Shown one piece after another: positions 24,629-52,753 of a stretch of 64,000 bases of DNA; the first letter of the stretch is position 1, and each line of letters opens with the position of its first letter. Made by a program: the position numbers and the translations under genes. Source of the stretch: Treponema sp. (lineage in GTDB: Bacteria; Spirochaetota; Spirochaetia; Treponematales; Breznakiellaceae). The stretch covers positions 23,345 to 87,344 of the forward strand of contig JAISQJ010000162.1 in the NCBI GenBank assembly GCA_031274285.1, in the 5' to 3' direction. Below the pieces are notes generated by a model. The model had not been told where the DNA came from and made no database searches. It worked only from the letters and a program-made list of their open reading frames with translations.

Positions 24629-26416
24629 TTAGGCCGGTGTAGCCGGCAATGTAAGGGTTACGCGGGTCCCCCGGCCTTTTTCACTTTGGTAAAAAAGGCC
24701 ATAACCGGGTCCGTACATCAGCCTAAGGCGCTTAGCTACATTGGCCGCCCCATAGCCGCCGTTAACCCTTCCATTGTTTAGTTTTTCCGCCTCTTCGGCG
24801 GTCATGCCAATCCCATCGTCCTGTATGTATATTCTTAAAATACCATCCCCCGGTTCAATCTTCACCAGGATGCTGCCGGTCCCGGATTCTTTTTCCAAAA
24901 TACCATGGATAATAGCATTCTCCACAATGGGCTGCAGGATAGTCCTAGGCACCATACAGGAGAGGGATTCTTCAGGATATTCACAGCGGTAACATAGCAC
25001 ATTTTCAAAACGCATATTTTGTAGATCAACATAGGCCTGAACATGGGCCAATTCGTTTTGCAGGGGGACGATATTTTTTCCCCCGCCCAGAGCGGCTTGG
25101 TAAAATTGCGCCAGGGCATCCACAGCAACGCTGACCTTCTCGTTACGGCCGTTTTTTGCGAGCCAATTAATCATCTCCAAAGTGTTGTAGAGAAAGTGCG
25201 GATTGATCTGTTCCTGCAGCACCTGTAATTCATAGCTTTTTAATTCCATGCCGCTCTGGTATTTGTATTCAGCAAAATCCTGTAGATTTTTTACCATTGT
25301 GTTGTAATTGACGATGAGTTGGCCAATTTCATCCCTGCCGGCGTATTCGGTGATGGGTGTGAGGGTTCCATTATTGGTGGTCTGCATATAATCAATAAGT
25401 ATCTTGACCCTGGCAGTTAAATTGGAAAATTCTATCTTAAAGAAAAAACCCGCAATACAACTCAGCAGTATAAGTATCAAGAAGGCAGCGAGCTGTAACT
25501 GACGGCTGTCACTGCGTATGGAATTTAAAGGGATGACGGTAATAAGATTGGTACGGTAATTACCAATAGGCGCCTGATAAACAATATAGTCCCGCCCTAG
25601 TACAGTCTTGTACTGCCCCGTAGTATCATCGGCCCTGGTTTTATAGGGCACAAAATTCTCTAACTGAATATCGCCGGGAAATGATCCGATGGAGGCGATA
25701 ATTTCTTGTTTATAATTTAGGATATAGGAAATTGTACCATCAATAGAGCTATTCTTATTCAGGATATCGGTAAAATCCGTTAACGGAATATCGATTCTTA
25801 CGATGCCGAAAAGATCCTGGTAATTTTCTGAACTGCAGATAGTCCTGGCATAAAAGGTACGATGGTCTTCTCCCTGCCTGATCCAGGCCGGTGGACATAG
25901 TAAAAATGACCTCCGGTGCTGTGCAAAAAATGTTTTAAACTCCCTGAACCATATATCATTTTTTACAGCGTCGAAACTAAAATAGTTTATCCCATTGGCG
26001 AGGATACCCAGTTTACCGTCAAAGTATAAATAAAAGCCGGCAATGGAGGATCGGCTAACCGTGGTGTATATCGCATGTTCCAAGTACCTTTTTACAGTAT
26101 TCATCTCGTTGGCGGAATAATCCTCCATCCTATTCTGGTTATGATAAAGAGTTTGAAAATAATCTATTCGTGACAGGGTAAAGGCCAGGGTATCATAATT
26201 GGAAATATTTTCCTTTAAATACTGTAATGTTTGTTGAAAGTTCGCCGTTGCCGAATACTGCAGTTGATGTTCCAAAAGGCCCGCCACATAAGAAGCCAAG
26301 CCAAAATTTATTAGGAGCAGGGGGGCAATAAAAATGACAATATACAGCCGGTTAAGTTTTTTAGAAAATGGAATATCATAACGAAAAATATCAAGGATTG
26401 TACGAAGTTTACTCAT
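24629..26416 (-). CDS. sensor histidine kinase, YesM type
   Basis: Two TM segments, HAMP-like, His-kinase motif LQEQINPHFLYNTLEMINWLA, HATPase (LQPIVENAIIHGI; GIGM). Confidence 0.92.
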   Translation of the reverse strand: MSKLRTILDIFRYDIPFSKKLNRLYIVIFIAPLLLINFGLASYVAGLLEHQLQYSATANFQQTLQYLKENISNYDTLAFTLSRIDYFQTLYHNQNRMEDYSANEMNTVKRYLEHAIYTTVSRSSIAGFYLYFDGKLGILANGINYFSFDAVKNDIWFREFKTFFAQHRRSFLLCPPAWIRQGEDHRTFYARTICSSENYQDLFGIVRIDIPLTDFTDILNKNSSIDGTISYILNYKQEIIASIGSFPGDIQLENFVPYKTRADDTTGQYKTVLGRDYIVYQAPIGNYRTNLITVIPLNSIRSDSRQLQLAAFLILILLSCIAGFFFKIEFSNLTARVKILIDYMQTTNNGTLTPITEYAGRDEIGQLIVNYNTMVKNLQDFAEYKYQSGMELKSYELQVLQEQINPHFLYNTLEMINWLAKNGRNEKVSVAVDALAQFYQAALGGGKNIVPLQNELAHVQAYVDLQNMRFENVLCYRCEYPEESLSCMVPRTILQPIVENAIIHGILEKESGTGSILVKIEPGDGILRIYIQDDGIGMTAEEAEKLNNGRVNGGYGAANVAKRLRLMYGPGYGLFYQSEKGRGTRVTLTLPATPA

Positions 26417-27942
26417 ACGCGATCCTTTAAGCGGTACTGGGTTGGGAGCTGACCGGTGTTTTTCTTGAATGATCTGGTAAAATAATTGGTATTGTTAAAG
26501 CCGCACCGATGGGCGATATCATGTATCTTAAGCTGCGAGAAAGTTAATAAATTTTTTGCGGTCTCGATCCGTATCTTGTTGATATAATGGTTGATGGTCA
26601 TACCATGACGCTGTTTAAAGAGATAGCAGAGATAGGGGGCGGTCAAGGCCAGTTCGTCACAGAGCATGGTGATGGAAAGATTCAGATCGCCGAATTTATT
26701 ATCAATAATATCACGGGCCCGATCCGCAAGCCGTCCGCCGCCTTCATGTCCATGTTCAAGGAAGGCAACCCGGTCCATAATGATGCCCATGCAGCCATCC
26801 AAAGTGGAAATATTTTCAAAAACCCCTATGGGCAGGGGCTCATTTCCGCCGACTTTCCATTCAATTGCCAACAGAAGATCATGCAGTAAAGCCTTGGTAT
26901 GTTCCACCGGGGGCAGTGTCTCTGTAAAATTTTCTTTAAGTTTCTGAATATCTCTTTTTATCCCATCATACCGGCCCCGGGAAATATCGGTTTTGATATT
27001 ATTAACAGCATTACAAAGGGATATATCCATGGAGAAGGAAATATCTTTCTCGGAAAGCAATTCTGACGTGCCTAAATAAAAACTTGTTTTGAGTCGAGCC
27101 TTGGCGGTGGCAAATGCATGTGATGAACGCTCAACAGAAGGAACGGTCTCCCCCAGTGCTATGGCATATTCTAGGGGAAAGAGGTTCCGGTGATTCCTGA
27201 GTATCTGGCGGATATGTTCACCATTGTTATGGAGGTTCTTACCGTGGGCAGCAGAAAACAAAAAACAGACCACCGTATTTTCCGCATCCGCATAGATGAT
27301 AGGTATAAATCCGTGGCCCGCAAAAAGGCCGTTCACATCCTCCTGAAGCTGCCTGATGTCAAGATCTTCCCCGGGGCTGTCATCAGAAATTGCAGCCTGA
27401 AAGATAAGACAAGAAAGGGGGTATCCCGGCCCAGGGCCAATGGACCCCCTCAGCTTTATTGAACCTAGGGCTTCATAAAGCTCGGCCTTATCTGCCAAGG
27501 GGCGGCTCATCATAAGGCCTAGGGCAACTCTGGAGGATAGTTCCGCCTGCCGTCCTCTGCGCTGCCGCTCCCGAAGTTCCTCCATGATTTCCCCCAGGGT
27601 CTCGCTTAACATCTCAAGATTGACAGGCTTGTTGACGTACTGTTCCGCCTTGACTTTGATTGCCGACCGTAGATATTCCTCGTCCGAATAACCGCTGAGA
27701 AACAGTATCACACAGTCGGGGAAAGCTCCACGGATATGATTTGCCAGATCAATACCATTCATACGGGGCATCCTAATATCGGTGATCAAAATATCAGGAC
27801 GCCGATCGGATAGAACTTCCAATGCCTCAATGCCGTTCCTGGCGGTTAAGACCGTATCTATACCGATTTCATCCCAGGCGATATTATCCCGAATTCCATT
27901 CCTGGTTAATACCTCGTCATCAACCAAAAGAATTATCGACAT
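26413..27942 (-). CDS. response regulator with C-terminal AraC HTH, YesN type
   Basis: Receiver MSIILLVDDEVLTRNGIRDNI...DILITDIRMPRMNGIDLA; C-terminal AraC HTH (HDIAHRCGFNNTNYFTRSFKKNTGQLPTQYR). Confidence 0.95.
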   Translation of the reverse strand: MSIILLVDDEVLTRNGIRDNIAWDEIGIDTVLTARNGIEALEVLSDRRPDILITDIRMPRMNGIDLANHIRGAFPDCVILFLSGYSDEEYLRSAIKVKAEQYVNKPVNLEMLSETLGEIMEELRERQRRGRQAELSSRVALGLMMSRPLADKAELYEALGSIKLRGSIGPGPGYPLSCLIFQAAISDDSPGEDLDIRQLQEDVNGLFAGHGFIPIIYADAENTVVCFLFSAAHGKNLHNNGEHIRQILRNHRNLFPLEYAIALGETVPSVERSSHAFATAKARLKTSFYLGTSELLSEKDISFSMDISLCNAVNNIKTDISRGRYDGIKRDIQKLKENFTETLPPVEHTKALLHDLLLAIEWKVGGNEPLPIGVFENISTLDGCMGIIMDRVAFLEHGHEGGGRLADRARDIIDNKFGDLNLSITMLCDELALTAPYLCYLFKQRHGMTINHYINKIRIETAKNLLTFSQLKIHDIAHRCGFNNTNYFTRSFKKNTGQLPTQYRLKDRV

Positions 27943-28122
27943 AGCTTATAATTCTAATATAAGTTTATAAAAAAGAAAAGTGATTTTTTCATGTTTTTTC
28001 TACAAGATATTAAGAATATGACACGGAATCATAAAAAAGTATTGTTACAGGGATACCAAATAACCTTTATACTCACTTTATGAAATTAGGCAACCACAGC
28101 TGATTTCACTAATGGCGGGAAA

Positions 28123-29055
28123 ATGGCAATAGCGGGTAAGAAAAAAATATTTTTAACCAAACTCTGGGAGAATCGTTTTTTATGGATCATGCTTTTACCG
28201 GCCATTACTTTTATTGTCATCTTTTCCTATATTCCCATGGGCGGCATCATAACCGCCTTTAAGGACTACAAAAACAAGATGGGCATCATAGGCAGCCCCT
28301 GGATAGGACTTGCCAACTTTAGGTATCTACTAGTTTCGGATAAGTTATGGACCCTTACCCGTAATACCTTGGCCTATAATGCTTGTTTTATAGCCTTTGG
28401 CATGATCGTTGAGGTGGGAATTGCGGTTATCATCAGTGAGCTTCGTCTCAAAAACTTGAAAAAGGTGTTTCAGTCCATGACTTTCCTGCCATTTTTTATT
28501 TCCTGGGTTGTAGTTGCTTCAATAATGATGAGTATTTTTGGTTATGAGACCGGCGCCATTAACACTATCCTCAATGCTTTAGGCCGGGAGCGAATGAATA
28601 TTTACGGTAACCCCGCCTTCTTTCCCGTGGTACTGGTACTGGTGAAGCTTTGGAAAAACACCGGCTATGGCGCTATCATTTACCTGGCCTCAATTACCGG
28701 CATGGATCAGGAAATGCTTGAGGCTGCGGAAATAGACGGTGCAAATATCTGGCAGCGAATCTGGCATATCACCATCGCATACCTGCGGCCTACCATGGTA
28801 ATTATGCTGCTTTTATCCATTGGACAAATATTCCGGGGTGACTTTGGAATGTTTTATCAGATTGTAGGCCGATCTCAATTGCTTATGGAGGTAAGTGACA
28901 TAATTGATACCTTTGTATACAGATCTTTGGTTAACTCTCCAAATACCGGCATGGCTGCCGCCGCCGGTTTATATCAGAGTATCCTTTGTTTTATTTCCAT
29001 ATTAGCCGCCAATTTTGCGGTTAAAAAAATAGAGCCTGATTATACACTCTTTTAA
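28123..29055 (+). CDS. sugar ABC transporter permease, LplB type
   Basis: LLPAITFIVIFSYIPMGGIITAFKDYK; EAAEIDGANIWQRIWHITIAYLRPT. Confidence 0.92.
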   Translation: MAIAGKKKIFLTKLWENRFLWIMLLPAITFIVIFSYIPMGGIITAFKDYKNKMGIIGSPWIGLANFRYLLVSDKLWTLTRNTLAYNACFIAFGMIVEVGIAVIISELRLKNLKKVFQSMTFLPFFISWVVVASIMMSIFGYETGAINTILNALGRERMNIYGNPAFFPVVLVLVKLWKNTGYGAIIYLASITGMDQEMLEAAEIDGANIWQRIWHITIAYLRPTMVIMLLLSIGQIFRGDFGMFYQIVGRSQLLMEVSDIIDTFVYRSLVNSPNTGMAAAAGLYQSILCFISILAANFAVKKIEPDYTLF

Positions 29056-29084
29056 TCAAGGCCCAGAGAGCAAGGAAAGGTTTA

Positions 29085-30005
29085 ATGAATTTAGCATGGA
29101 TAAAAATAAACAAGCAGAGAATATCTGTTGATACGCTGATATTTCATACTCTGGGCTATCTGGTACTGGCCATTTTTGCATTTAGTTGTTTTTTACCCTT
29201 CTATCTGGTCTTAATCAACTCTTTTATGGATGAAGGTACCATACTGAAAGAGGGATATAATTTTTATGTCAAGAAATTCTCTGTCACAAGCTATAATATG
29301 ATCCTCAAAAACCCTCATGATATTCTAAATTCTTATAGTATTACTGCCTTTGTCACCGTAGTTGGTACTTGCCTGGCGCTGTTACTGGTATCTATCACCG
29401 GTTTTGTTTTAAGCCGTCGTGATTTTTATCACCGTAATATGATGAGCTTCTTTTTCTTTTTTACTACCCTTTTTAACGGCGGACTGGTACCCTGGTACCT
29501 GCTTTGCGTCAGAACCCTACATTTTACAAACCGGATCTATGCCCTTATTATTCCAAGTCTCTTTTCGGTATGGAACATGATTATCTGCAAAAACTATTTC
29601 AAGTCTATCCCATTTGAGATAATTGAATCCGCCAAAATTGACGGCGCCAATGATATAACCATTTATTTTCGGATTATACTGCCTATAAGTATCCCTCTGC
29701 TGGCAACCATAGGGTTATTCACTGCTCTTAGTTACTGGAACGACTGGTATAACTGTATGCTTTTTATCAATAATCGTCGTAGTGACTTGTGGACCCTGCA
29801 GTATTACCTTCAAAACATCCTTAACAGCGCCCAGGCCATGCGGAGAGTAGCAGAAAGGACAGGAATATCCTTTGCGGGCCAGGTTCCCATGGAAGGTATG
29901 AAGATGGCTATGACCGTTATTGCCACGGGTCCTATGCTTTTGGCTTACCCTTTTGTTCAAAAATATTTTGTTCGGGGATTGACCATCGGTGCGGTAAAGG
30001 GATAA
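29085..30005 (+). CDS. carbohydrate ABC transporter permease, YtcP/LplC type
   Basis: FEIIESAKIDGANDITIYFRIILPISIPLLATIGLFTALSYWNDW; C-terminus FVQKYFVRGLTIGAVKG. Confidence 0.93.
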   Translation: MNLAWIKINKQRISVDTLIFHTLGYLVLAIFAFSCFLPFYLVLINSFMDEGTILKEGYNFYVKKFSVTSYNMILKNPHDILNSYSITAFVTVVGTCLALLLVSITGFVLSRRDFYHRNMMSFFFFFTTLFNGGLVPWYLLCVRTLHFTNRIYALIIPSLFSVWNMIICKNYFKSIPFEIIESAKIDGANDITIYFRIILPISIPLLATIGLFTALSYWNDWYNCMLFINNRRSDLWTLQYYLQNILNSAQAMRRVAERTGISFAGQVPMEGMKMAMTVIATGPMLLAYPFVQKYFVRGLTIGAVKG

Positions 30006-30036
30006 TTTCCCTAATAAATATCCTTAGGAGGAAAAA

Positions 30037-31593
30037 ATGAAAAGAATGGTTTTATCGGTATTTCTTTGCGTCATGGCGGCAGGTTTTCTCTCTGCCGGAG
30101 GGAACAGGCAAAAAAGTGATGGAGGGGCAGCATCTTTTAAGAGCAATAGTCCTATTTATGCGGATTATGATCTATCCCAGCCCTTAAAGATATATATCTA
30201 CATGCTTGGAGATGTACCAAAAGACATGGATGAAATTATTGCCAAGGCCAATGCGGACTATTTCAAACCCACACTCAATACTGAAGTTGAAATGGTTTTT
30301 CTTGCATGGTCTGATTATGAAGTAAAGTATCCATTGGTACTTTCCGGTGGTGATGATGTAGACATTATTTTCACATCTTCTTGGGCCTTTTATGATCAAG
30401 AGGCCGGCAAAGGTGCGTTCGTGGAGTTGACCGACGATTTTGTTTCCAGATGGATGCCTAACGTGAATAAAATGCAGCCTCCAAATTCTTGGCCCCAGGT
30501 ATTGACGGGGGGGAAAATTTACGCTATTCCTCGTATGTACGCCGGAACCCAGGGCTATAAATTTGTAGGTATTCGCGATGATCTACGGGAAAAATACGGC
30601 CTTACCCCACCAAGGGATTGGGCCACTATGAAGAATTATCTATTTGCTATTGCAGAAAATGAAAAGGGTATTCAGGCATTGGCAAGTGCCGGGGAAAATG
30701 AAGAAGTTTTACTTGTCTATCTGCAGACCTTGGATGTACAGCTAACCGAAAACCCGGTCTACTTTGCATGGCAGAATAATAATCATCAGGAGCCGGCACC
30801 CAATGACCTTGTATTTTTATATACAAGTGAATGGTACCGTAATTTTGCCATGGAAATGCGGGAGTGGGCAGAAAAGGGCGTTTGGAGCAGGAATGTGATG
30901 AATAATACCATTCAAACCACCGATTCCTTTGCTCAGGGTACCAGTGCCAGTATATTTTGGAATGATGCCGTTTTTACAGCCGGGATAAATATGGAGGCAA
31001 ACCGCCTTGGTAAGGCGGGATACTATGACCTTTCGCCGGGTAAGATGGTACGGCGAGCTAGTTATAGCGGGGATTGCTGGGCAATTAGCACTTCCTCGGA
31101 GAATCCTGAACGAGCGGCCTTAGTGATCGATTTAATGAAAACGAACCTCGGTCTGGTTAATCTACTACAGGGCGGTATTGAGGGCAGGCATTATCTGGAT
31201 CAAGGCGATGGTACCTACTTACCCGGACCGGAAGCATCGGATTATAACTTTAACAGCTGGGCCTGGGCATTAGGGAATCCCAACTCCTTAAGGCTCGCCT
31301 ATGATTCGTCTACCCCGCCTGCCCGGATATCCATTTTCAATTCCCTGGAACCCCGTGTATTTGAGCCGGTTATCGACGGATTCCGGATTGACATGGGGAA
31401 GATTTCTACCGAATGGACGGTTATTTCGGCACTTATCGAAGAATATAGCAATAGTTTCGAGTGCGGCGCCTTTGGGGATCAAACTGCAGCAAAAATTGGG
31501 GAATTTAGTACCAGGCTGCGGAATGCAGGACTAGATAAGTTGACCCAGGAATTCAGAACTCAGTACGCTGCGTTTCTGGAAAAGTACAAGTAG
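30037..31593 (+). CDS. extracellular solute-binding protein, LplA-like
   Basis: Signal MKRMVLSVFLCVMAAGFLSAGGNRQ; SBP_bac_1/DUF3502-like architecture; in operon with LplB/LplC-type permeases. Confidence 0.88.
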   Translation: MKRMVLSVFLCVMAAGFLSAGGNRQKSDGGAASFKSNSPIYADYDLSQPLKIYIYMLGDVPKDMDEIIAKANADYFKPTLNTEVEMVFLAWSDYEVKYPLVLSGGDDVDIIFTSSWAFYDQEAGKGAFVELTDDFVSRWMPNVNKMQPPNSWPQVLTGGKIYAIPRMYAGTQGYKFVGIRDDLREKYGLTPPRDWATMKNYLFAIAENEKGIQALASAGENEEVLLVYLQTLDVQLTENPVYFAWQNNNHQEPAPNDLVFLYTSEWYRNFAMEMREWAEKGVWSRNVMNNTIQTTDSFAQGTSASIFWNDAVFTAGINMEANRLGKAGYYDLSPGKMVRRASYSGDCWAISTSSENPERAALVIDLMKTNLGLVNLLQGGIEGRHYLDQGDGTYLPGPEASDYNFNSWAWALGNPNSLRLAYDSSTPPARISIFNSLEPRVFEPVIDGFRIDMGKISTEWTVISALIEEYSNSFECGAFGDQTAAKIGEFSTRLRNAGLDKLTQEFRTQYAAFLEKYK

Positions 31594-31610
31594 AGGAAGG
31601 AGGGCCTGCC

Positions 31611-33980
31611 ATGATTATTTGGGTTGTACCATTGACCAATCAATGCATCACAGATATTGCTACACATTTTGTCTGGCAGGCCATGCCCAACGCCACCTCT
31701 TATCATCTGGAATACGGGTCCGACATCGACTTTATTGATTGTATAAGCGTAAATGTAGAACAAATTCCAGGCTGCAAGGTGGGATTCTTTTTTGCCCCTG
31801 AATGCCTGCTGCCCAAAGATGGAACAGTTTTTGCTCGCGTTAAGTCCAATACGGGAGAATCCTCTGAAATACTTTGCTTTACCTGCAATACCGCCCACCA
31901 AAAATCACCCTTGCGCTGGGATCTTTCCCCCGAAAAACCCTACTTTACCATCTTTGATTACGGCGATCATGATTATGGACGGGTTTACGATCTTCTGCCT
32001 GACAGTCTTAAGCCCTATTCGGCCATTGGTAACTGTGCATCATACCGTTCCCCTTCTGCAGAATTACTCAATTTCCTAATGGATATTGATGGCAAGGGCT
32101 ATCCCTGGCATCTAGGAGCGGCAGGTCCTCATCTGGTAAATGGGGAATTGTATACCATTACACCTCTTTCGACGATAGAATATTTGTTACAGCATGCACG
32201 AAATATGAAAAGTGTTGGCCTTGTGGAACAATATATGGGTATCAAGAAAGAAGGGGATTGGAAGATTGAGTATTTCAAGCGAGTCATCATGCTTTGTGCT
32301 AAATATGGTGTACCTGTTTTTTATGCTGATGGGAATCGTAATTATCTTGATCTGGCATCCTTTATCAAGCGGCCGATATATATGAATTTTTTTCGAGAGT
32401 ATCACAGCTATATTACCCTGGCTTATAAGCAGAATCACGGTAATGCGGCGTATACCAGTTTTGGCGCAATCCTAGGCGCATGGATAGATGGGGGCTGCGC
32501 CCATATCGGAGTACAGCCTGAAAACTGGTATTGGAATGACGCAGGTTTTCGGGATGATCCGGGGAACTACTACGGTTATCTTCAAGGGAATGAACAACAA
32601 ATTTCTCCCTGTATGACCGCTCAAATGATTCTTACCGGACTCTCCATCGGCGCATGTTATTATTCCATGGAGGGGGAAGGATGGCTGATACAGGCCCGTG
32701 GTAATGACGATCTTGAATGGTCAGATCAGGGCTTGGCTGCTCTTTCCTTGATGCAAAGCATTATCCATTACAAATTGATTCCTAAAAAACTACAAGTTCT
32801 GGAGAAAATATCTGCAGTGGTTGATGCGGAAGGAGAATGTGAGAATTTGGGTGATGCCTGGGTAGGTGGAAAATACCGACGGGTATTCCAAAATATTTAT
32901 GGCATAGATCACGGTTTTGAGATTTTTCTTAAACAAAGCCGGTATTTTTACCTCCCCCTGGCAACCGACCGAAAAGATAGCTTTGGTAAGTACACATTTA
33001 TCAACGCCGATAGTATCACCGATCCTGCTGAAGTAAATACCCTGCTTGATCCTCTGTATCCTGAAACATTTACCGGGGATATATACCTTACCGATACAGG
33101 CCGTACTTATGTGCTTATGAACAGTAATGAGAACAGGCAGGCTAGTCAATATTTTATAGTAGAACCCCATTCTAACCAAGAAGAGGTATTAATTGTCAAA
33201 AGAATAGAAGGAGCTCTAGGACTGTGGCAATATATGGTATTTTGGCAAAAAGAGGGAATATTTCATCTGCTGATAAATGCCCCGGCAGGAACCGGTGTAA
33301 CAATGCGGCTTTATATGGATGAAAAACCGGCTGGCATACTGACAAAGGAAAGTATCTCCATTCGCTGGGAAGCCCGAACTTCGTGTCTGGAATTATCACT
33401 GATAGGGAGCGGCCGGCAGGCGGAACTTATCTGTGCCTCATGGGTTTTCCCACCGGAACTTCACTTTCCCGATCCGGTACAGAATAAACCTGACCATGCG
33501 ATATATCTAAGCGATTTTCCCTTTTCCCGAGTCTGTACGAATGGCCCCTGGATGCCTATAAAAAACTACTGTGCCAATGGAACTTACGGTAAACTTCCTG
33601 CATCCATGAACAGCCTGCGCTATCCTCATAGTTTTAGTTTTATGCGTAACAGCGAATTAGATTTTGATATTTCCGGCCATTACCATTATCTTGAATTTAC
33701 CTGCGGTTTTGACATTGATGCATGGATGCCCATTATCATTGACAGGGATCATATTATCTGGGATCGGCATGCAAAGACGATTAACCTGTGCTTTACCTTG
33801 TTGGGAGATGGTAAGGAATTATATGTTTCACCGCCGCTGCACCGTACCGATTGGCGCCGAAAGATCTCCGTAAATGTAGAAACCGTTAAGATACTGAGCT
33901 TCCGCCTTTCCGGGGATGTAGTTTCCAACAGTCCTGGGGCCGATGTATACATGGACATAGGAAATCCGATATTATCATGA
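31611..33980 (+). CDS. GH98-like glycoside hydrolase with N-terminal FN3-like and C-terminal NPCBM-like regions
   Basis: YFTIFDYGDHDYGRVYDLLPDSLKPYSAIGN; IYMNFFREYHSYITLAYKQNHGNAAYTSFGAILGAWIDGG; DPGNYYGYLQGNEQQISPCMTAQMILTGLSIGACYYSMEGEGWL; C-terminal YLSDFPFSRVCTNGPW...SFSFMRNSELDFDISGHYHYLEFTCGFD. No signal peptide. Confidence 0.65.
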   Translation: MIIWVVPLTNQCITDIATHFVWQAMPNATSYHLEYGSDIDFIDCISVNVEQIPGCKVGFFFAPECLLPKDGTVFARVKSNTGESSEILCFTCNTAHQKSPLRWDLSPEKPYFTIFDYGDHDYGRVYDLLPDSLKPYSAIGNCASYRSPSAELLNFLMDIDGKGYPWHLGAAGPHLVNGELYTITPLSTIEYLLQHARNMKSVGLVEQYMGIKKEGDWKIEYFKRVIMLCAKYGVPVFYADGNRNYLDLASFIKRPIYMNFFREYHSYITLAYKQNHGNAAYTSFGAILGAWIDGGCAHIGVQPENWYWNDAGFRDDPGNYYGYLQGNEQQISPCMTAQMILTGLSIGACYYSMEGEGWLIQARGNDDLEWSDQGLAALSLMQSIIHYKLIPKKLQVLEKISAVVDAEGECENLGDAWVGGKYRRVFQNIYGIDHGFEIFLKQSRYFYLPLATDRKDSFGKYTFINADSITDPAEVNTLLDPLYPETFTGDIYLTDTGRTYVLMNSNENRQASQYFIVEPHSNQEEVLIVKRIEGALGLWQYMVFWQKEGIFHLLINAPAGTGVTMRLYMDEKPAGILTKESISIRWEARTSCLELSLIGSGRQAELICASWVFPPELHFPDPVQNKPDHAIYLSDFPFSRVCTNGPWMPIKNYCANGTYGKLPASMNSLRYPHSFSFMRNSELDFDISGHYHYLEFTCGFDIDAWMPIIIDRDHIIWDRHAKTINLCFTLLGDGKELYVSPPLHRTDWRRKISVNVETVKILSFRLSGDVVSNSPGADVYMDIGNPILS

Positions 33981-34014
33981 TGAATGTTATATCAAACTGA
34001 AAAATTTTAGGGAA

Positions 34015-34141
34015 ACCCTATGGCTAAGGATGCAAAGATCAACTATTCATCCTGAGTATACAATACTGGGTCTAGCGTAGAAACCCAAGAATCCTACCGC
34101 CGCTGAGATGGGCTTTAGAAAAGACCTGACATAGGCGGCGG
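34015..34141 (+). ncRNA. structured intergenic segment, possible fossil IS605/TnpB-type 3' RNA end
   Basis: Nested complementarity: ACCC/GGGT enclosing GGATG/CATCC and AGTAT-ACA-ATACT hairpins; GGGTCTAGCGTAGAAACCC; AAGAATCCTACCGCCGC...GCGGCGG. Confidence 0.3.
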
Positions 34142-34168
34142 CGTTAAGGGATTTTAGCGTTACCGTTT

Positions 34169-34191
34169 CCGCCCGGCCGTCAGCCGGGCGG
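34169..34191. terminator. GC hairpin CCGCCCGGC-CGTCA-GCCGGGCGG in convergent intergenic region
   Basis: Perfect 9-bp stem, 5-nt loop, next to the stop of the 34197 gene; no clear U-tract. Confidence 0.5.
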
Positions 34192-34196
34192 TTCCC

Positions 34197-34589
34197 TTAT
34201 AATTTTTCAAAGTATACAATAACAAAATAGGTATTGTTCGGCACATAGTCAAATACCCCGACCCAATTTCCCGTTGAATCGAGAAATGAAATAGTATTAT
34301 CCGCTTCACCGGAAGTCTTGCCGCGATCGGTTAGGAATTTATATATATCGGCCTGCGTTACGTTTCGCGATCCAAGAGATGAAACCTGATATGCCCGAAG
34401 CCTATTCCTATAATCTTTTAAAGTATCATAAGTTTCCGGATACGGACTGGTAAGGGAATTATAGTTTGTTTTTAAAATTGTGAAAGATTCATAATAGTAA
34501 TACTGTGTTTCCGATACCGGTTTCTTACAACCCGCCAATATTAACACAGCAAGCATGGGCGCAAAACAAACAAAGCTTTTCAGGCTCAT
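34197..34589 (-). CDS. hypothetical lipoprotein
   Basis: MSLKSFVCFAPMLAVLILAGCKKPVSE lipobox. Confidence 0.65.
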   Translation of the reverse strand: MSLKSFVCFAPMLAVLILAGCKKPVSETQYYYYESFTILKTNYNSLTSPYPETYDTLKDYRNRLRAYQVSSLGSRNVTQADIYKFLTDRGKTSGEADNTISFLDSTGNWVGVFDYVPNNTYFVIVYFEKL

Positions 34590-34629
34590 CCTGATTTCCT
34601 CCTTGCCTTGTCAATTAACAGGGCCGCCC

Positions 34630-35796
34630 CTATTGCTGTTCAATGCGGTATCCCCGTTCTTCCAACTGCGTCAGTAAGCCGTCGGGACCATACATGTGCC
34701 CGTTGCCGACAAGTATAAATTCAATATCCTGGGTCTTTAAATAATTTTCTATGACCGGCATCCACGCATTATTTCTATTTTTAATCAATGCTTCATAGAC
34801 GGCGGGAAAATTCTCCCGCAGGTATTCATACTGAAGGTCTTCCTCGCTGTCCTGGATACCGTTTTTCCAGCATTCGACCATGGTATCAAAGGCCGTTCTA
34901 TTCTCCTCATAGGATCCAAAATTCTGAAACAGGTAGGAATAGTATGCATTACCGTACCCGTCTCCCAGGTTTGTGATTAAGTCAAGTTGAAATTCGTCAG
35001 ATTCAAAATATTCAATATTTTTATCGCCGCCGTCTATGGATTTGTCTTTGAAAAAATTATCAACCCCCTGGGCCTGCGCAAACCGGCCCACCAAATGGAG
35101 ACTTAATACGGTATAGGCGACATAGGGCTTTAGGACCATCAGATCGGTGACAGGGTAATCGAACTCTTCGCATTTTGCCCTTAATGCGTTAAAGGTTTCC
35201 CTGTCCAGGACCGTCTGCAGCGTCCTGTTATCGGACAAAATATACCTGCCGATAATCATGTTAATCTGTTCATCTTCCAGCATGGCCAAAAGCTGCCGGT
35301 TTAATTCCATGTATTCCATAATCTGCTCATTTCCCTGGGATCTTTGAATCTCCAGGGCCATGTTGATTATATTGACACGCATTTCGGATTCTTCCGCGGT
35401 TTGAAGCTGAATGGACGGATCGGAAATACTGTTATAGACTCTTTCGTTGTCGTAGACAGCTGTCTGAAATTGCATTGCCAGGGCCAGAAAAGATTTAACC
35501 GGTTCGTCTTGTATCAACGCTGCTATTTGGCTGACTAAATTGAGAAATGCTTGAAAGGGCTCACTGTTTGATATATCCCCGGCGTTATTCGGACATTCGA
35601 ATACCATGACGCCGGACGCATCAAAGGCGGCATGAAAGGCTTCCGGCAGCGGGTAATCGGATTCACGCAAAAGATGAATGGTTCCGCCTAAATAGAGGAT
35701 CCTATCCCCGTCGTAAATCTTCCAAAGTGAGGTTTTGCCGTATGAGCAGATACAAAGAAAGCAGGAAAAGATTAGAAAAGAAAGAATTTTCTTCAT
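34630..35796 (-). CDS. TraB/GumN family protein
   Basis: TSLWKIYDGDRILYLGGTIHLLRESDYPLPEAFHAAFDAS...; C-terminal FILVGNGHMYGPDGLLTQLEERGYRIEQ. Confidence 0.9.
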   Translation of the reverse strand: MKKILSFLIFSCFLCICSYGKTSLWKIYDGDRILYLGGTIHLLRESDYPLPEAFHAAFDASGVMVFECPNNAGDISNSEPFQAFLNLVSQIAALIQDEPVKSFLALAMQFQTAVYDNERVYNSISDPSIQLQTAEESEMRVNIINMALEIQRSQGNEQIMEYMELNRQLLAMLEDEQINMIIGRYILSDNRTLQTVLDRETFNALRAKCEEFDYPVTDLMVLKPYVAYTVLSLHLVGRFAQAQGVDNFFKDKSIDGGDKNIEYFESDEFQLDLITNLGDGYGNAYYSYLFQNFGSYEENRTAFDTMVECWKNGIQDSEEDLQYEYLRENFPAVYEALIKNRNNAWMPVIENYLKTQDIEFILVGNGHMYGPDGLLTQLEERGYRIEQQ

Positions 35797-44361: not shown

Positions 44362-47247
44362 ATGATTGTCTTCAATTCTAATCGAAAAAAGCTGACCCTT
44401 CTCGCGGTTGGAGCCCTGATTCTGTCGGCGGCTCTCTTTTCCTGTACTACGGCGCCCGGCAAGGGGCCGGGAATCGAAGCCTACGGAGGGCTGGGGGCGG
44501 GAGGGGACCCTATTCCCTTCATGGAACAGGTCCGTACCGGCGTCCTTCCGGGGGGGCTTAGGTACTTTATCCTGGAGAATTCCCGGCCGGAAAACCGCGC
44601 CTACCTTACCCTGGCGGTAGACGCCGGGTCGGTGCTGGAGGAGGAGCACGAGCGGGGCCTGGCCCACTTTGTGGAGCACATGGCCTTTAACGGTACCGCC
44701 CGGTTCCCCGAATCCGAACTCGTAGACTACCTGCGATCCCTGGGGATGCGCTTTGGGCCGGAGGTAAACGCGTATACCAGCTACAACCGCACGGTCTTCG
44801 GCATTGAGGTGCCGGTGGAATCTACGGGGGACGGGCTTAAAAAGGTCCCCGCCAAGGCCCTGGAGGTGCTGGACGACTGGACCAGGGCCATCACCTTTGA
44901 TCCCAAGGATGTGGACGACGAGCGTCTGGTCATCATGGAGGAGTACCGGTCCAGCCTGGGGGCCGTAAGCAGGATACGGCAGCAGATGATGCCGGCCCTC
45001 TTTGAAGGCTCCCCCTATGCGGTCCGCGATCCCATCGGCCTGCCGGAGATCATCCAAAACGCCCCGGCCCAACGGCTGGAAGACTTTTACCGCCGCTGGT
45101 ACCGGCCGGATAACATGGCCCTTATCGTGGTGGGAGACTTTGACGGCGCTGCGCTGGAAGCGGAACTTGCCTCCTACTTTGCGGGTCCGCCGGCCGCCGG
45201 GGCGCTGGAACGGCCCCGCTACGAACTCACGGCCCCCAAGAAGGGGAATTTCAGGACCTTCACCATAACGGACCCGGAACTTACCTTTAGCCAGGCGGCC
45301 CTCTACTTTAAGCGTTCCCCCCAGGCCCGCCGGCCGACCCTGGAAGGCTACCGGGGGGACCTAATGGACAACCTGATCCAGCGGATGCTGTCCCTGCGCT
45401 TTGACGAGAGATCCCAACAGCCCGAGGCCCCCTACATCGGCGCCATGGGGGGGACTATGCGTTACGGCAGTTCCTCCCGCTACTACCTGCTGCTGGCGGA
45501 GTCGAAGACCGGCGAGATCGAGGAAAGCCTGGGGGAACTGCTGCGGGAAAAGGAATCCCTGCGCCGTTTCGGCTTTACCCGGGGGGAGATCGATATGGCC
45601 AAGGCCGCCCTCCTCTCCGATCTGGAGCAGATGGTGTCCGAAAAGGACCGCCAGCAGTCGGGACGCTACGTTTCCGGCCTTACGGAATACTTCCTTGAGG
45701 GGGAAAGCCTGCCGGACATAACCTGGGAGTACGGGGCGGCCAGGGAACTCTTGCCCCTCATCGGCGTGGAGGATATTGCCCGGCAGGTACGGGAGTATTT
45801 TGAAAGCGGCGACCTGACGGTTCTTATCATCGCCCCGGAATCCGAAAAGGAAAAACTGCCCGGCGAAGCGCGGATCAGGGACATGGTGAGGGAAAGCGCC
45901 CGCCTGAAGCTGCAGCCCCCGGCGGAAACCGCATCCGGCGGCGCCCTGGTCCCCCAGAGGCCGAAAGCCGGATCGATCCGCTCCGAAACCCTGGACAGTG
46001 AAACCGGGGCCCGTATCTGGGAACTGGAGAACGGCGCCTCCGTGATTCTTAAGGAAACCCGGAACCGGAACAACGAGATCGTCCTTTACGCCATGGCCAG
46101 GGGGGGTACGGCAAGCGCGGTCCCGGAAGAATATGTCTCCGTCTCCCTGGCCGCGGAAATGGCGGAGGCCTCCGGCCTTGGCCCCTGGTCCCGGCCCCAA
46201 CTGGTAAAGCTCCTGACCGGTAAGCAGGTAAGCCTCTCCTTCTGGACGGGGAGCTACTACCGGGGTTTCCAGGGTTCCTCCAGTTCCGGCGACCTGGCAA
46301 GCCTTATGGAGATGCTCTACCTCTCCTTTACCGGACCCCGGCTCAGCGAGGACGCCGTCCGCACGGTGCTGGACTCCTACCGGACCAGCCTGGTCCAGCG
46401 GGGGGAGGACCCGGACACGGTCTTTGCCGATGCGGTACTCCGCATGACCTCCGGGGGGCACCCCTATTTTGAGCCCCTTACCGTGGAGAACCTGGCCGAC
46501 TTTGATTCGGAGGAGGCCGTATCTTTCCTTAAGCGCGGCCTTAACCCTGCGGACTATACCTTTATTTTTACCGGAAACCTTGACATCGAGCAGATGCGGG
46601 GCCTGGTGGAGACCTGGCTTGCCGCTATCCCCCCTTCGGAATCCTGGAACACCTGGACGGACCTCCGGCTGCGCAGGCCCGGCAAGACCGATGAAAGGGT
46701 CTACAAGGGCAAGGAGGAACAGAGCATAGTCTACCTGGGCTGGTACGCTCCCCTGCCCTTCACGGAGGAACAGAGTGTAAAAGCCTCGGTTCTCAGCGAG
46801 TACCTGGACATACTCCTTACCAGGGATATTCGGGAAAAGCTGGGGGGAGTCTATTCGATCAGCGTATACGTTTCCCTTTCCCCGATTCCAGCCGGAGAAC
46901 TGGTGATGCAGATTTACTTTGCCTGCGATCCCAGGCGGAGCGAGGAGCTTTCCGCCGCGGTGGAGGACCTGTTACGGCGGACCGCCGAAGGCCCCCTGGA
47001 CGGGGATACCCTTACCAAATCCCTGGAGGCCGTGAAAAAGGACTGGGAGGCTTCGGTGCAGAGCAACCTCTACATCGCCCAAAGCTACGCTAATTCGGCA
47101 GTGCTGCTGGATACCCCCCTCTCCCGGCTGGATAAGCGGCCGGAACTCTACCGGGGGGTCGTCCCCGCGGACATACAGGAACTCTGCCGCATGCTCCTGC
47201 CCCGGGGTCCGGCCAAGCTGGTCCTCTACCCCGAGGGCTGGAAGTAG
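44362..47247 (+). CDS. M16 family zinc metallopeptidase lipoprotein
   Basis: LSAALFSCTTAPG lipobox; HxxEH motif in GLAHFVEHMAFNGTARFPESELVDYLRSLGMRFGPEVNAYTSYNRTVF; second M16 domain. Confidence 0.93.
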   Translation: MIVFNSNRKKLTLLAVGALILSAALFSCTTAPGKGPGIEAYGGLGAGGDPIPFMEQVRTGVLPGGLRYFILENSRPENRAYLTLAVDAGSVLEEEHERGLAHFVEHMAFNGTARFPESELVDYLRSLGMRFGPEVNAYTSYNRTVFGIEVPVESTGDGLKKVPAKALEVLDDWTRAITFDPKDVDDERLVIMEEYRSSLGAVSRIRQQMMPALFEGSPYAVRDPIGLPEIIQNAPAQRLEDFYRRWYRPDNMALIVVGDFDGAALEAELASYFAGPPAAGALERPRYELTAPKKGNFRTFTITDPELTFSQAALYFKRSPQARRPTLEGYRGDLMDNLIQRMLSLRFDERSQQPEAPYIGAMGGTMRYGSSSRYYLLLAESKTGEIEESLGELLREKESLRRFGFTRGEIDMAKAALLSDLEQMVSEKDRQQSGRYVSGLTEYFLEGESLPDITWEYGAARELLPLIGVEDIARQVREYFESGDLTVLIIAPESEKEKLPGEARIRDMVRESARLKLQPPAETASGGALVPQRPKAGSIRSETLDSETGARIWELENGASVILKETRNRNNEIVLYAMARGGTASAVPEEYVSVSLAAEMAEASGLGPWSRPQLVKLLTGKQVSLSFWTGSYYRGFQGSSSSGDLASLMEMLYLSFTGPRLSEDAVRTVLDSYRTSLVQRGEDPDTVFADAVLRMTSGGHPYFEPLTVENLADFDSEEAVSFLKRGLNPADYTFIFTGNLDIEQMRGLVETWLAAIPPSESWNTWTDLRLRRPGKTDERVYKGKEEQSIVYLGWYAPLPFTEEQSVKASVLSEYLDILLTRDIREKLGGVYSISVYVSLSPIPAGELVMQIYFACDPRRSEELSAAVEDLLRRTAEGPLDGDTLTKSLEAVKKDWEASVQSNLYIAQSYANSAVLLDTPLSRLDKRPELYRGVVPADIQELCRMLLPRGPAKLVLYPEGWK

Positions 47248-47253
47248 GATACG

Positions 47254-47322
47254 CCCAGGGCAGCCAGCGTTTACTCCGCAGGGGCGTGATACACCTAATA
47301 GTGCCACCGGAGCTGCCCTGGG
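47254..47322. repeat. perfect 11-bp inverted repeat CCCAGGGCAGC ... GCTGCCCTGGG at GC/AT boundary
   Basis: Arms at 47254-47264 and 47312-47322, 47-nt spacer, starting 7 bp after the M16 stop codon. Confidence 0.7.
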
Positions 47323-47359
47323 GCTTAATGGGGAAGCGGTTTATTTGGGGGGAATATTT

Positions 47360-48301
47360 TTACTTAAATGCTTCTAAAACAGGTCTGCCAATCCATATAT
47401 CAGGGCGATGAATATTAAGTATATATGCTATTGTCGCTGCCGTATCATATGTATTTACTTCGGCTGTAATAACATGGCCCTGTTTTATTCCTTTTCCAAA
47501 AATAATAAATGGTATCTCTCTTTCAGAGGGTGTATCACCGCCATGATCCCTGCCCATACTTTTATTTACTCCTCCATGATCAGCAGATAATATAAATATT
47601 GTATCATCATACAACCCAGCGTTCTTTGTTGCCTGTACAATTCTTTCTATTTGTTTATCTAATATTTCCAATTTATCATAATAATCTTCTGTACCATGGC
47701 CGATTGCATGTCCTACGGCATCGGGTTCCTGGAATATTATACACGTTAAATCCGGTCTAAGATTTTTCAAAAAATATGTTATATCTTCTAGAACAGGCCG
47801 AGAATCTTTTGAAAAATCAGGTATATGCATCATTCTATTTATTGTCTCCGGGGGTACCAAATATTCCATTCTTCCAGATTTTTCATAAAAATAACCTATT
47901 ATAGAATCAGGTTTTTGCTTTTTCATAACTGAAAAAAAACTGGGAAAGAAACCATATTCATCGGTTATTATTGGATTTCTGTTATTTCCGGGATTTTCAG
48001 TTATACCATGCATATCTGGGGTAACTCCAGTAAACATGGATTCCCAATTTGGCGCAGTTATAGAAGGCATTACACAAAGATTTCTTAATGTATATGCCCC
48101 ATTTGACATTAATGTTCTTACAAAAGGCATATTATTCAAATGATTTTCATTTTGCAGGCTGTATGAGCCCCACCCATCTAAACCTATCAATATAACATGA
48201 GTGTCTGGATCGGGATTTTCATTTCCTGTTCCTGTATCACAAGAAAAAAAACAGAAAAATAATAATATAACACTAAATATTACATATTCTTTGATTTTTA
48301 T
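47360..48301 (-). CDS. alkaline phosphatase superfamily / type I phosphodiesterase-like lipoprotein (start codon unclear)
   Basis: LIGLDGWGSYSLQN...MPSITAPNWESMFTGVTPDMHGI; FILSADHGGVNKSMGRDHGGDTPSEREIPFIIFGKGI. In-frame upstream sequence encodes a lipoprotein signal KIKEYVIFSVILLFFCFFSC-DTGTG with no ATG/GTG/TTG. Confidence 0.75.
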   Translation of the reverse strand: MKIKEYVIFSVILLFFCFFSCDTGTGNENPDPDTHVILIGLDGWGSYSLQNENHLNNMPFVRTLMSNGAYTLRNLCVMPSITAPNWESMFTGVTPDMHGITENPGNNRNPIITDEYGFFPSFFSVMKKQKPDSIIGYFYEKSGRMEYLVPPETINRMMHIPDFSKDSRPVLEDITYFLKNLRPDLTCIIFQEPDAVGHAIGHGTEDYYDKLEILDKQIERIVQATKNAGLYDDTIFILSADHGGVNKSMGRDHGGDTPSEREIPFIIFGKGIKQGHVITAEVNTYDTAATIAYILNIHRPDIWIGRPVLEAFK

Positions 48302-48420
48302 AGCTTCTTCCCCTCAATATTGATAACTTTCATCATAAAATATTATGTCAATTTTTCAATGTCATTTTAAGAAATTTTAAAAAATAGTACATAACATGAA
48401 AACTATACAACATTTTTTGT

Positions 48421-48600
48421 GCCCTGAATAAGGAAATCGCAGGCTTCCAGGGGCGCAAAATTGCTTATAATCGGCTATCCCCCGCCAAACAGTTTTTACA
48501 CCTGGCGGGTGTCCCTGGGTGCCTGTCCAGGGCTGCCGAGATTGCCTATATGCTCCATGTTACAAAGCATCACGCACGGAAACGCGGCGAGCTTCTTATT
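48421..48600 (+). other. possible remnant coding fragment with composition unlike its AT-rich flanks
   Basis: Open frame LNKEIAGFQGRKIAYNRLSPAKQFLHLAGVPGCLSRAAEIAYMLHVTKHHARKRGELLIF without an evident start. Confidence 0.3.
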
Positions 48601-48629
48601 TTTGATATTAATTTCTTAACCAATATTTC

Positions 48630-50090
48630 TCATAAACCATTAATAGCGGTATCAAGCCAAGCCATATGATTAACAAAAAATTGCCTATCACATCCCACTT
48701 CTGCGTCAAAACTACCCAATGGAATCCCTTCAACACTAACACGGGTATTTAATATATCCCATCTTCTAAAATTCAATTTCTGCGATTGCGTAAGCTTTAC
48801 TTTTGTGTTATCGATGTACTGAAGCGCCGCCTGATTGATTGGTGACCTATATGTTGACCACAATTCTTTTAACTTATTCACAAATGCGGTATCAGTCAGC
48901 AATTTCTCATAATACCACCCGTTACATACCCAATAATTAGCGGGGCGTGGACGCGGTCCGTCATACCAGCCAATACCATTTGACCATTCAAAATCCCAAG
49001 GCGGTCCCATAAATACTTTTGATGACGGGGTAAAATCTGATTTTGTCAAATATGGGTTGGTATCCATGTTTGCTATTATGTTCTGCAATAAAAACCAGCC
49101 GGCAAAACTATCAATATCAATATATTTTTGGTATCCATCGTCAGGATCATTAAACCCATCAGAATAAAGTACCGTCTCAAATCCATTGAGGTAATTTTTA
49201 ATGTAATCCCATTGGTCATTGGTCAGATCGTCAGTGTCAGGATTCTTAAACGAATAACCAAATCCTTCATTTGTTACAAAATATTTTGGTTCCTGCAAAT
49301 AATAACCATCGCGCTCGACAATAAAACCATCGCTTGGAATATTTACACGCTTCGTATCCTGCTTAATACCCTCAACAAGTTGATAATTTCCCTGATATTC
49401 GCCGTTAAGCACTAATTCAACAAATTCTGCATCCGGAGTCCATGCAAAATTGAGAATTTTGCTCATCTCGAACGCGAGTCCTGTCCGCATGAGTGACTTA
49501 TCGCAATAATTTGCCAATAATACCCAATCCTTGTCATTCCCCATACTAAAGAAATTCGCCTTACTGTCCAATTTAATTTTATAAGGCTTTTTAGGATAAG
49601 TCCATGTCGCATTGCCCCGTCCGCGTATACGCATTGTGTTTTCATGGACAATGTTGTTATGGTCTTTTATAATCATATTGGCCGTTATATACGTTTCTTT
49701 TGAGTTTATGTGTTGCCGATTTTGAGTCTCAATATATACGACCGGCAATCCGGTATCTACCAACGTATTTTCCACAACAACATCAAAAGTGGCTGTTTTA
49801 TCGCTAAGAGAAACGGCAATCGACCTTGTTCCGGCTGTAAATGTATCACCTTGAATGGTGTATGCCGCTGTCGGTTCTTCACTTCCATCCGTATAAATCA
49901 CAGTTACGGATAACCCGCTAAGATCAAAAGCCTCTCCCATAAGGTAGTTAACTTTCAACGGGGGGGTTTCAATTATAATCTTTTCAATTGCTTTTCCTTG
50001 CGTTTTCAGTCCTGTATCGCAACCAACAACCGCCATTCCTAATGCCAGCGTTACGCCGAGTATAGCCAATAATAAACCGTTCTTTTTCAT
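48630..50090 (-). CDS. CotH-type kinase family lipoprotein with N-terminal Ig-like domain
   Basis: MKKNGLLLAILGVTLALGMAVVGCDTG lipobox; bacterial Ig-like FDLSGLSVTVIYTDGSEEP; CotH motifs MRIRGRGNATWTYPKKPYKIKLD, LNGEYQGNYQLVEGIKQDTKRVNI, FMGPPWDFEWS. Confidence 0.9.
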   Translation of the reverse strand: MKKNGLLLAILGVTLALGMAVVGCDTGLKTQGKAIEKIIIETPPLKVNYLMGEAFDLSGLSVTVIYTDGSEEPTAAYTIQGDTFTAGTRSIAVSLSDKTATFDVVVENTLVDTGLPVVYIETQNRQHINSKETYITANMIIKDHNNIVHENTMRIRGRGNATWTYPKKPYKIKLDSKANFFSMGNDKDWVLLANYCDKSLMRTGLAFEMSKILNFAWTPDAEFVELVLNGEYQGNYQLVEGIKQDTKRVNIPSDGFIVERDGYYLQEPKYFVTNEGFGYSFKNPDTDDLTNDQWDYIKNYLNGFETVLYSDGFNDPDDGYQKYIDIDSFAGWFLLQNIIANMDTNPYLTKSDFTPSSKVFMGPPWDFEWSNGIGWYDGPRPRPANYWVCNGWYYEKLLTDTAFVNKLKELWSTYRSPINQAALQYIDNTKVKLTQSQKLNFRRWDILNTRVSVEGIPLGSFDAEVGCDRQFFVNHMAWLDTAINGL

Positions 50091-50204
50091 TTTTTCCCTC
50101 CGGAGTAAATTATTTGCGGTGTTATGAGGTCTTGAGTAAACAAAAAGAAATTAAAGAGGTTTAAGGACAGTAAAATAAAACTGATACTACTTAACGAATG
50201 TCGC

Positions 50205-50216
50205 GGGGGGGGGGGG
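50205..50216. repeat. homopolymeric G12 tract
   Basis: TCGC-GGGGGGGGGGGG-TATT, 115-126 bp upstream of the CotH-type gene start. Confidence 0.9.
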
Positions 50217-50372
50217 TATTTTAGAAAATGCAAACATGATGAGTGTTATCCTCCCCTTAGGCCAGGAGCTAAATACCGGGACGGGCCCGATTGACGGGTA
50301 CTATGTTAACAGGAAATGTGAGGGATTGCAAGTGTTTTGGGGTGATGAAACAAAAATCCGGAAAACGATTGC

Positions 50373-50402
50373 GGGGACGTCGCGGAGGGGGGTGCCGTCC
50401 CC
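50373..50402. terminator. hairpin GGGGACG...CGTCCCC at pbpC 3' end
   Basis: Perfect 7-bp arms just beyond the pbpC stop codon. Confidence 0.45.
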
Positions 50403-50404
50403 CC

Positions 50405-52753
50405 TTACCTTGGTTCTACTTCGACATTTACCCGGAGGCCGGCGGAACGGCCCCGGGAGTCTACCACCGTCAGGTCCCAAAGGCCCGGCTCGCCCTGCCA
50501 GAGGAAACGCTCGTAGGGTTTGGCCCGGCCCAGGAAAAGGGTGTTGGCGAACCAGAAGAGTTCCCCGCCGTCCTGATCCGCGCCGGCCAGGAGGACGATG
50601 CGGTTGCGCCGGTCGTCCCGGGGCCGGAGGATGTAGTCGGTATTGCCGAGGGGGGAGATAATAGAGGGGGGGAAGCCCTGGGCTGACGATCCCAGGGTCC
50701 GGGACGGGGCCGCGGGGGGATAGGGGGGCGGCAGAAAGCGGGGGAGTCCGGCCTGGGCAAAGATTTCCAATACATCGGTGGGCCAGAACTCCCGTACCTC
50801 GCTCCTGATATGGGGTCCCCTTGTTTCGTCGGTGCGGTAGCCGCTGCGGGTGTCGATGTAGACCCGCCGGTGGATACGGCAGCGGCGGATGGGACTGACG
50901 CCGGGAATGAACCAGGTGTCTACCAGATGGGGGCAGTCGCCGCCGGGCAGATCGCCGGAAACCGCACAGACGGAAACCGGGGAGACTCCCTCCGGCATGG
51001 GGCGGGGGGCCAGGAATGATCCCGGGGGGATCCGGGCGGTAATGGCGTCGATGATGCTGAACTGCAGGGGCGTTGCGGTAAGCCGTCCGATAAGGGCGGG
51101 ATTCCCCTGGCCGGAGAAATTACCCAGCCATACGGCCAGGACGTAGCGGTCAAAGACCGCGATGGACCATGCGTCCTTAAAGCCGATGGAGGTGCCGGTC
51201 TTGTAGGCCACGGGGATCCGCCGGCCCGCGGCGTAGGGGGTGTCACCGGGGGCGGGGTTCCGTTCCAGCATGGCCAGGGTGACTGCCGCGGCCTGGGGGC
51301 TGAGGATCCGTTTGGGGGGCGCCTCGTCCTGGGGTTCACCGGGAAAGAAGCGGGGGGAACGGAGGAGGCCGCCGTTGGGCAGGGAGGCGTAGAGGCCGGC
51401 CAGTTCCAGCATGCTGAGGTCCGCGGCGCCCAGAACCGCCGAAAGGCCGTAATGCTCCTTTTCCTTGAGTCCCGTGATCCCGGCGTTCTTCAAAAAATCG
51501 TGGAGATCGGGGTTGCGGATGTTGGCGGCGAGCTGGACCGCGGGAACGTTGCGGCTGTCCACCAGGGCAAACCAGGCCTTGACCGGCCCCTTAAAAACCC
51601 CCTGGTAGTTGTCCGGGGTGTATTCGCTGAAGCTCCGGGGGGTATCTTTCAGCATGGTTTCGGGGTGGATGAGCCCCTGCTCCATGGCCAGGGCGTAGAC
51701 AAAGGGCTTGAGGGTGGAGCCGGGTGAGCGCTTGCTGGCAAAGCCGTTTACCTGGCCCTGAATCGAATCGTCCCCATAGTCCGCGGAGCCCAGGGCGGCC
51801 AGAATTTCCATGCTGGTCCAGTCCAGGAGCAGGACGCTTCCGTTGTTGATCCCCCAGCTTCTGTTCCGCCGCAGGTAGGACTCCATCTCCCGCTCCACCA
51901 GGTCCTGAAGGCTCCGGTTGACGGTAAGGGCGAGCCGTCCGTCCGTCCTGCCCGCCGGGGGGGCTTCCCGCGGTCTGAGGTACTCGGCAAGGTGGATGGC
52001 CCGCCGGGGAAAGCGGTTCACCAGGTAGGGGGGCAGTTCCATCTCCGTCCTGAGGGAAGAATCTCCGGGGTGGGAGGCCAGCCAGGACTCGTAGAGCTTG
52101 GACCGGGCCTCCATGAGTTCCGGGGGCAGGCCCCGGAGGGGGGCCCGGCGGCCCGGATTTTGGGGGATCACCGCCAGGGTGAGCAGTTCCCCGCCGGTGA
52201 GTTCCCGGAGGTCCTTGTTGAAGTAGTACCAGGCGGCCGCGCCGTAACCTTCGATATTGCCCCCCAGGGGGGCCAGGTTCAGGTAGGCTTCCAGAATCTC
52301 CTGCTTGGACAGGCAAATTTCCAGGAACAGGGCGCAGAGGCTTTGGAGCAGTTTCCCCCGCAGGTTCCGGGTGTAAAGGCCGTAGCGGAGCCGGGCAAGC
52401 TGCATGGTGATGGTGGAGGCCCCCATGCGGCGGCTTTTCTTAACGTAGGTCTCCCAGCCCGCCCGGAGCATGGCCGCGGGGTTGATGCCCCCGTGGCCGT
52501 AAAAGTAACGGTCCTCCTGGAGCAGCACGGCCTCCACCAGGGCGGGGGGAACATCCGCCAGGGGGGTACGGAGGCGGTACTTGTCGTCTTCGGTAAGAAA
52601 GATGTTGAGGAGCCACCCCTCCCGGTCGGTATAGGCGCGGGAGAAGGATACGGCCTCCAGGGGGTCCAGAAAAACCGCCTGGTAAGCCAGAAACAGGGCC
52701 AGGATCAGAACCGGGATGAGGATTAGGAGAGTCCGCAACCGGGGGAAGGCCAT
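50405..52753 (-). CDS. pbpC: penicillin-binding protein 1C (bifunctional glycosyltransferase/transpeptidase)
   Basis: GT51 EDRYFYGHGGINPAAMLRAGWETY...GASTITMQLARL; transpeptidase KRSPGSTLKPFVYALAMEQG, KTGTS; C-terminal BiPBP_C-like region. Confidence 0.93.
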   Translation of the reverse strand: MAFPRLRTLLILIPVLILALFLAYQAVFLDPLEAVSFSRAYTDREGWLLNIFLTEDDKYRLRTPLADVPPALVEAVLLQEDRYFYGHGGINPAAMLRAGWETYVKKSRRMGASTITMQLARLRYGLYTRNLRGKLLQSLCALFLEICLSKQEILEAYLNLAPLGGNIEGYGAAAWYYFNKDLRELTGGELLTLAVIPQNPGRRAPLRGLPPELMEARSKLYESWLASHPGDSSLRTEMELPPYLVNRFPRRAIHLAEYLRPREAPPAGRTDGRLALTVNRSLQDLVEREMESYLRRNRSWGINNGSVLLLDWTSMEILAALGSADYGDDSIQGQVNGFASKRSPGSTLKPFVYALAMEQGLIHPETMLKDTPRSFSEYTPDNYQGVFKGPVKAWFALVDSRNVPAVQLAANIRNPDLHDFLKNAGITGLKEKEHYGLSAVLGAADLSMLELAGLYASLPNGGLLRSPRFFPGEPQDEAPPKRILSPQAAAVTLAMLERNPAPGDTPYAAGRRIPVAYKTGTSIGFKDAWSIAVFDRYVLAVWLGNFSGQGNPALIGRLTATPLQFSIIDAITARIPPGSFLAPRPMPEGVSPVSVCAVSGDLPGGDCPHLVDTWFIPGVSPIRRCRIHRRVYIDTRSGYRTDETRGPHIRSEVREFWPTDVLEIFAQAGLPRFLPPPYPPAAPSRTLGSSAQGFPPSIISPLGNTDYILRPRDDRRNRIVLLAGADQDGGELFWFANTLFLGRAKPYERFLWQGEPGLWDLTVVDSRGRSAGLRVNVEVEPR

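Follow-up and report, generated by a model that had tools for sequence, protein, structure and literature searches.

The DNA between the genes for an M16 peptidase and penicillin-binding protein 1C (pbpC) in this Treponema genome is an accessory island, and the two lipoprotein genes that it contains were probably acquired independently at a permissive junction between convergent genes, rather than as a working pair. One encodes a member of the alkaline phosphatase superfamily (hereafter AP) and the other a CotH-family kinase. An attractive story in which kinase and phosphatase act together has been removed as unsupported, and smaller, testable points take its place: an insertion-prone convergent junction in a Treponema genus of putative termite-gut type; an NPP-like family, so far uncharacterised, that is linked to glycan loci and whose glycoside-hydrolase-like partner recurs in treponemes; and exported CotH kinases that are scattered and low in GC, one of which lies behind a poly-G tract like the switches of surface genes in T. 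pallidum. The window (that is, the whole stretch of 64,000 nucleotides analysed) is a portion of contig C36 from a MAG that is 83.5% complete, and its relevant features are as follows.

44362..47247, plus strand: M16 peptidase, left flank, position conserved
47248..50404, unstranded: accessory insert of 3,157 bp, from the M16 stop (47,247) to the pbpC stop (50,405)
47360..48301, minus strand: NPP-like lipoprotein gene of the alkaline phosphatase superfamily, with its stop codon at 47,360 and 313 codons when read from ATA
48299..48301, minus strand: ATA at the expected start codon of AP (sequence and ORF lists)
48302..48629, unstranded: spacer between AP and CotH, with a promoter-like TTGAAA-16-TATGAT before AP (48,359-48,332)
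48630..50090, minus strand: lipoprotein of the CotH kinase family (486 aa; gene intact), its N-terminal part being a Big_3 Ig-like domain
50205..50216, unstranded: run of 12 G (read as 12 C on the coding strand), 115 bp ahead of the start codon (ATG) of CotH
50405..52753, minus strand: pbpC, right flank, position conserved

The junction between M16 and pbpC

The flanking genes are convergent, and both the ORF lists and the sequence place two minus-strand lipoprotein genes between them. GC content, taken in 1-kb windows, is 0.33-0.40 at 47.5-50.0 kb compared with 0.61-0.67 on both sides, and the minimum of the whole 64 kb falls at 47,501-48,500, which bears out the AT-rich patch described in the initial annotation. 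Codon usage is shifted in the same sense; GC3 is 0.21 in AP and 0.37 in CotH against 0.76-0.82 in a reference of seven long core genes, and the two island genes also differ from each other in this respect (Fisher p = 3e-6). A second, larger AT-rich block at 24629-35796 (24.6-35.8 kb; GC 0.40-0.48) contains a sensor histidine kinase, an AraC-type regulator, a sugar ABC transporter and a GH98-like protein.

Comparison with six congeners, all of them incomplete MAGs (59-86%), shows what the junction looks like elsewhere in the genus; it could be compared in G001, G002, G003 and G005, and G004 and G006 leave it unresolved. M16 and pbpC lie face to face with only 20 bp between their ends in G005 and are 218 bp apart in G003, the gap is about 0.7 kb and holds a different ORF in G002, and in G001 it is about 5 kb and carries LPP20, CsgG-like and outer-membrane-protein (beta-barrel) genes (L130:318-4477), as read from a single contig running from within pbpC to within M16. 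The island DNA itself is absent from all six genomes (G001-G006). An island of foreign composition, as initially proposed, is therefore what we observe, its composition being atypical and its site either empty or differently filled in close relatives. Mobility genes (an integrase among them), a tRNA target and convincing flanking repeats were looked for at the island and none was seen. A 14-bp inverted pair (47,270/50,096) was considered as the island border, but it includes the ribosome-binding site of CotH and was judged to be a chance occurrence. A defence system was likewise rejected, PADLOC having given no match.

The AP and CotH proteins

The initial annotation correctly placed both genes on the minus strand, each with a lipoprotein signal whose last residues are Cys-Asp-Thr-Gly. 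This shared motif is weak evidence of a connection, since the CDTG DNA pattern occurs five times in the genome, two of these being AP and CotH, and three times in a reversed control. The protein families that it named also stood: the AP-type protein matches PF01663 with 94.9 bits (curated cut-off 23), and CotH matches both PF08757 (145.8 bits, cut-off 23.8) and PF07523, or Big_3 (37.1 bits). The two genes are 328 bp apart, and a structured RNA in this spacer was rejected, there being no match in an Rfam search; the fold z-score is -2.4.

An AlphaFold model of AP built with 29 relatives has a pLDDT of 89 and finds its best solved-structure matches among NPPs (Foldseek TM to query about 0.65-0.71). 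By alignment, AP retains all six metal ligands (D42, D194, H198, D241, H242 and H253) and has T82 as its nucleophile, so that it combines the two-metal site and the Thr/Ser nucleophile of the NPP family. We infer that the protein is exported and, as an enzyme of NPP type, hydrolyses phosphodiesters or phosphomonoesters with two metals, which the six Asp/His ligands would hold while T82 would attack phosphorus. AP resembles the Xanthomonas NPP (2gsn/7n1s; NPP/ENPP) in its PF01663 domain, six ligands, Thr nucleophile and fold, but it is a compact 313-aa lipoprotein with about 16% identity in structural alignment, and its own relatives carry a Ser nucleophile (29 of the 29 aligned). Uncharacterised AP-family proteins from polysaccharide-utilisation loci (PUL) of Bacteroidales are about 40-45% identical to AP along its full length and have the same ligands; AP differs from these in having Thr rather than Ser as nucleophile, no surrounding PUL and an ATA start.

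The two genes were initially both described as complete, which is accurate for CotH, an intact gene, but not for AP if judged by ordinary start codons. The lipoprotein signal of AP, IKIKEYVIFSVILLFFCFFSCDTG, starts at the ATA at 48,301 with GAGGGG preceding it, and the frame has no ATG, GTG or TTG before codon 38, a TTG at 48,190 that lies inside the catalytic domain. Either the ATA supports weak AUA initiation, or the start codon has been lost, or the base is wrong in the MAG. The nearest relative of AP is found in G034 (50%; tree support 89), and AP itself sits on a long branch of 1.48. This branch, the ATA start and a lone Thr where the relatives have Ser suggest that the gene may be poorly expressed or at the start of decay. 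That it is already a pseudogene, with its start codon lost and only the reading frame remaining, is a possibility that we rate as rather doubtful, and one that would be compatible with independent acquisition; while these same three features would fit such a loss, the 313 codons are free of stops, every metal ligand is retained, the GAGGGG ahead of the ATA is ribosome-binding-like, NPPs usually have Thr as their nucleophile and an erroneous base in the MAG could explain the ATA.

For CotH, a profile built from 16 relatives gives an alignment to the solved Bacillus CotH 5jd9 (E = 1e-9). D228 and D251 are inactivating positions in B. subtilis CotH (PMC7821199), and the catalytic Asp positions are both kept here as D343 and D366, their correspondence being drawn from the 5jd9 alignment and the 23-residue spacing. 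Single-sequence structure prediction reached a pLDDT of only 36, and so the homology to CotH rests on sequence. The Pfam match, the homology to a solved CotH and the Asp pair point to an exported, ATP-dependent protein kinase that would act independently of AP. Its likeness to Bacillus spore coat protein H lies in the kinase-domain profile match and both catalytic Asp positions, but here the protein is a lipoprotein with an Ig-like domain in a spirochaete, and no CotB/CotG-type substrate is known. Other bacteria are reported to have genes for polyphosphate polymerase, DUF4956 and Pel next to cotH (PMC7112168); none of these was recognised beside the island CotH. CotH-like genes also occur in a few phages (26 of 50,697 phage records, three viral contigs and PHROG 6813), but at identities below 40%, and no neighbour of the island was recognised as a phage gene, so phage cargo was rejected as an origin. 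The same genome has a second CotH-like sequence, split over two frames at a contig start (L068; G000:C123:26-560).

Relatives of the two genes and the origin of the pair

The AP family was sought in 84,980 species genomes, and the best 80 loci were taken for a study of their neighbourhoods. These come mostly from Bacteroidales, with six labelled Treponema or Spirochaetaceae; 33 of the 80 have SusC-like genes and 22 have SusD-like genes (raw counts, with no background rate), and neighbours include, for example, PL8, heparinase II/III-like, GH20, GH2, fucosidase and sulfatase genes. A GH5/GH39-like lipoprotein adjoins AP in four treponemes (G008, G034, L223 and L231). Since AP relatives adjoin glycoside hydrolases, lyases and SusC/SusD genes, the family seems to serve in degrading glycans that are phosphorylated or esterified in some other way. 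In the four treponemes, the AP and GH5/GH39-like pair lies at L050:7403-9639, L055:6412-8636, L223:8001-10234 and L231:6115-8225. The nearest relatives of CotH, on the other hand, are found in G393 and G007 (63-65%), and in the relatives inspected CotH is mostly solitary or set among other lipoproteins and usually lower in GC than its neighbours (0.41 compared with 0.55-0.60 in L309, and 0.43 compared with 0.56-0.58 in L306).

These neighbourhoods bear directly on the phospho-modification module of the initial annotation, in which, at the surface or in the periplasm, CotH would phosphorylate exported proteins and AP would strip the phosphate. The two genes are indeed adjacent on the same strand, and both products are predicted to be exported and retain their catalytic residues, but the co-localisation is not conserved: none of the best 80 AP loci has a CotH match in flanks of up to 8 kb, and none of the CotH loci checked has AP nearby. 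Nor is the co-presence of the two in the family above chance, occurring in 3 of 43 genomes where 1.5 were expected (p = 0.16; family tests 0.16-0.32). Across the phylum sample the overlap is a little higher than chance would give: two of 392 genomes carry both when the present genome is excluded, against 0.33 expected (p = 0.035, with kinship ignored). Elsewhere the two are never neighbours, G034, G031 and G405 included, and in G034 the record coordinates place AP about 0.55 and 2.4 Mb from the CotH genes. Given, in addition, that the recurrent neighbour of AP in treponemes is a glycoside-hydrolase-like lipoprotein, that AP and CotH differ in GC3 and that AP has no normal start codon, we consider a joint module very improbable; essentially, relatives carry the two genes separately, which is what the initial annotation had named as refuting it.

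This separate carriage is our reason for favouring independent acquisition. Because the genes are adjacent, co-oriented and AT-rich, and both encode CDTG lipoproteins, there is nonetheless some chance, albeit a small one, that a single transfer from a donor rich in AT, such as some other bacterium of the gut, brought both to their one insertion site without any joint function. Such a transfer does not sit easily with the difference in GC3 (0.21 in AP, 0.37 in CotH), with nearest relatives that lie in different genomes and at unlinked loci (G034 for AP, G393 and G007 for CotH), or with an island where neither an integrase nor a tRNA nor a convincing flanking repeat was seen. Under independent acquisition, the space between two convergent housekeeping genes would be a permissive insertion site, in a Treponema whose termite-gut type is itself presumed, and AP and CotH would each have arrived as a separate AT-rich lipoprotein gene. 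AP would then be an exported phosphoesterase that probably aids glycan breakdown and is possibly weakly expressed or decaying, and CotH would be an unrelated exported kinase, perhaps phase-variable.

Poly-G tracts and export

Poly-G tracts in promoters modulate the expression of surface genes in T. pallidum (PMC7864442), and the 12-G tract upstream of CotH may, by hypothesis, make this gene phase-variable. An 18-G tract accompanies the cargo at the same junction in G001 (L130:4937-4954). With such tracts ahead of the cargo both here and in G001, the junction could be read as a place where phase-variable surface genes are exchanged, in this case a kinase and a hydrolase that jointly modify surface phospho-groups, which we regard as extremely unlikely. 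Runs of at least 11 G are common in the genus (counting overlapping hits, 295 in this genome, 1,118 in G393 and five in G033). In both AP and CotH the lipid Cys is followed by Asp. An Asp at this position in E. coli favours retention in the inner membrane, a rule that may not apply in Treponema, and a surface location for the two proteins is consequently not established. Long runs of G close the contig (window 63951-64000); they are either genuine or an artefact of sequencing at which the assembly broke off.
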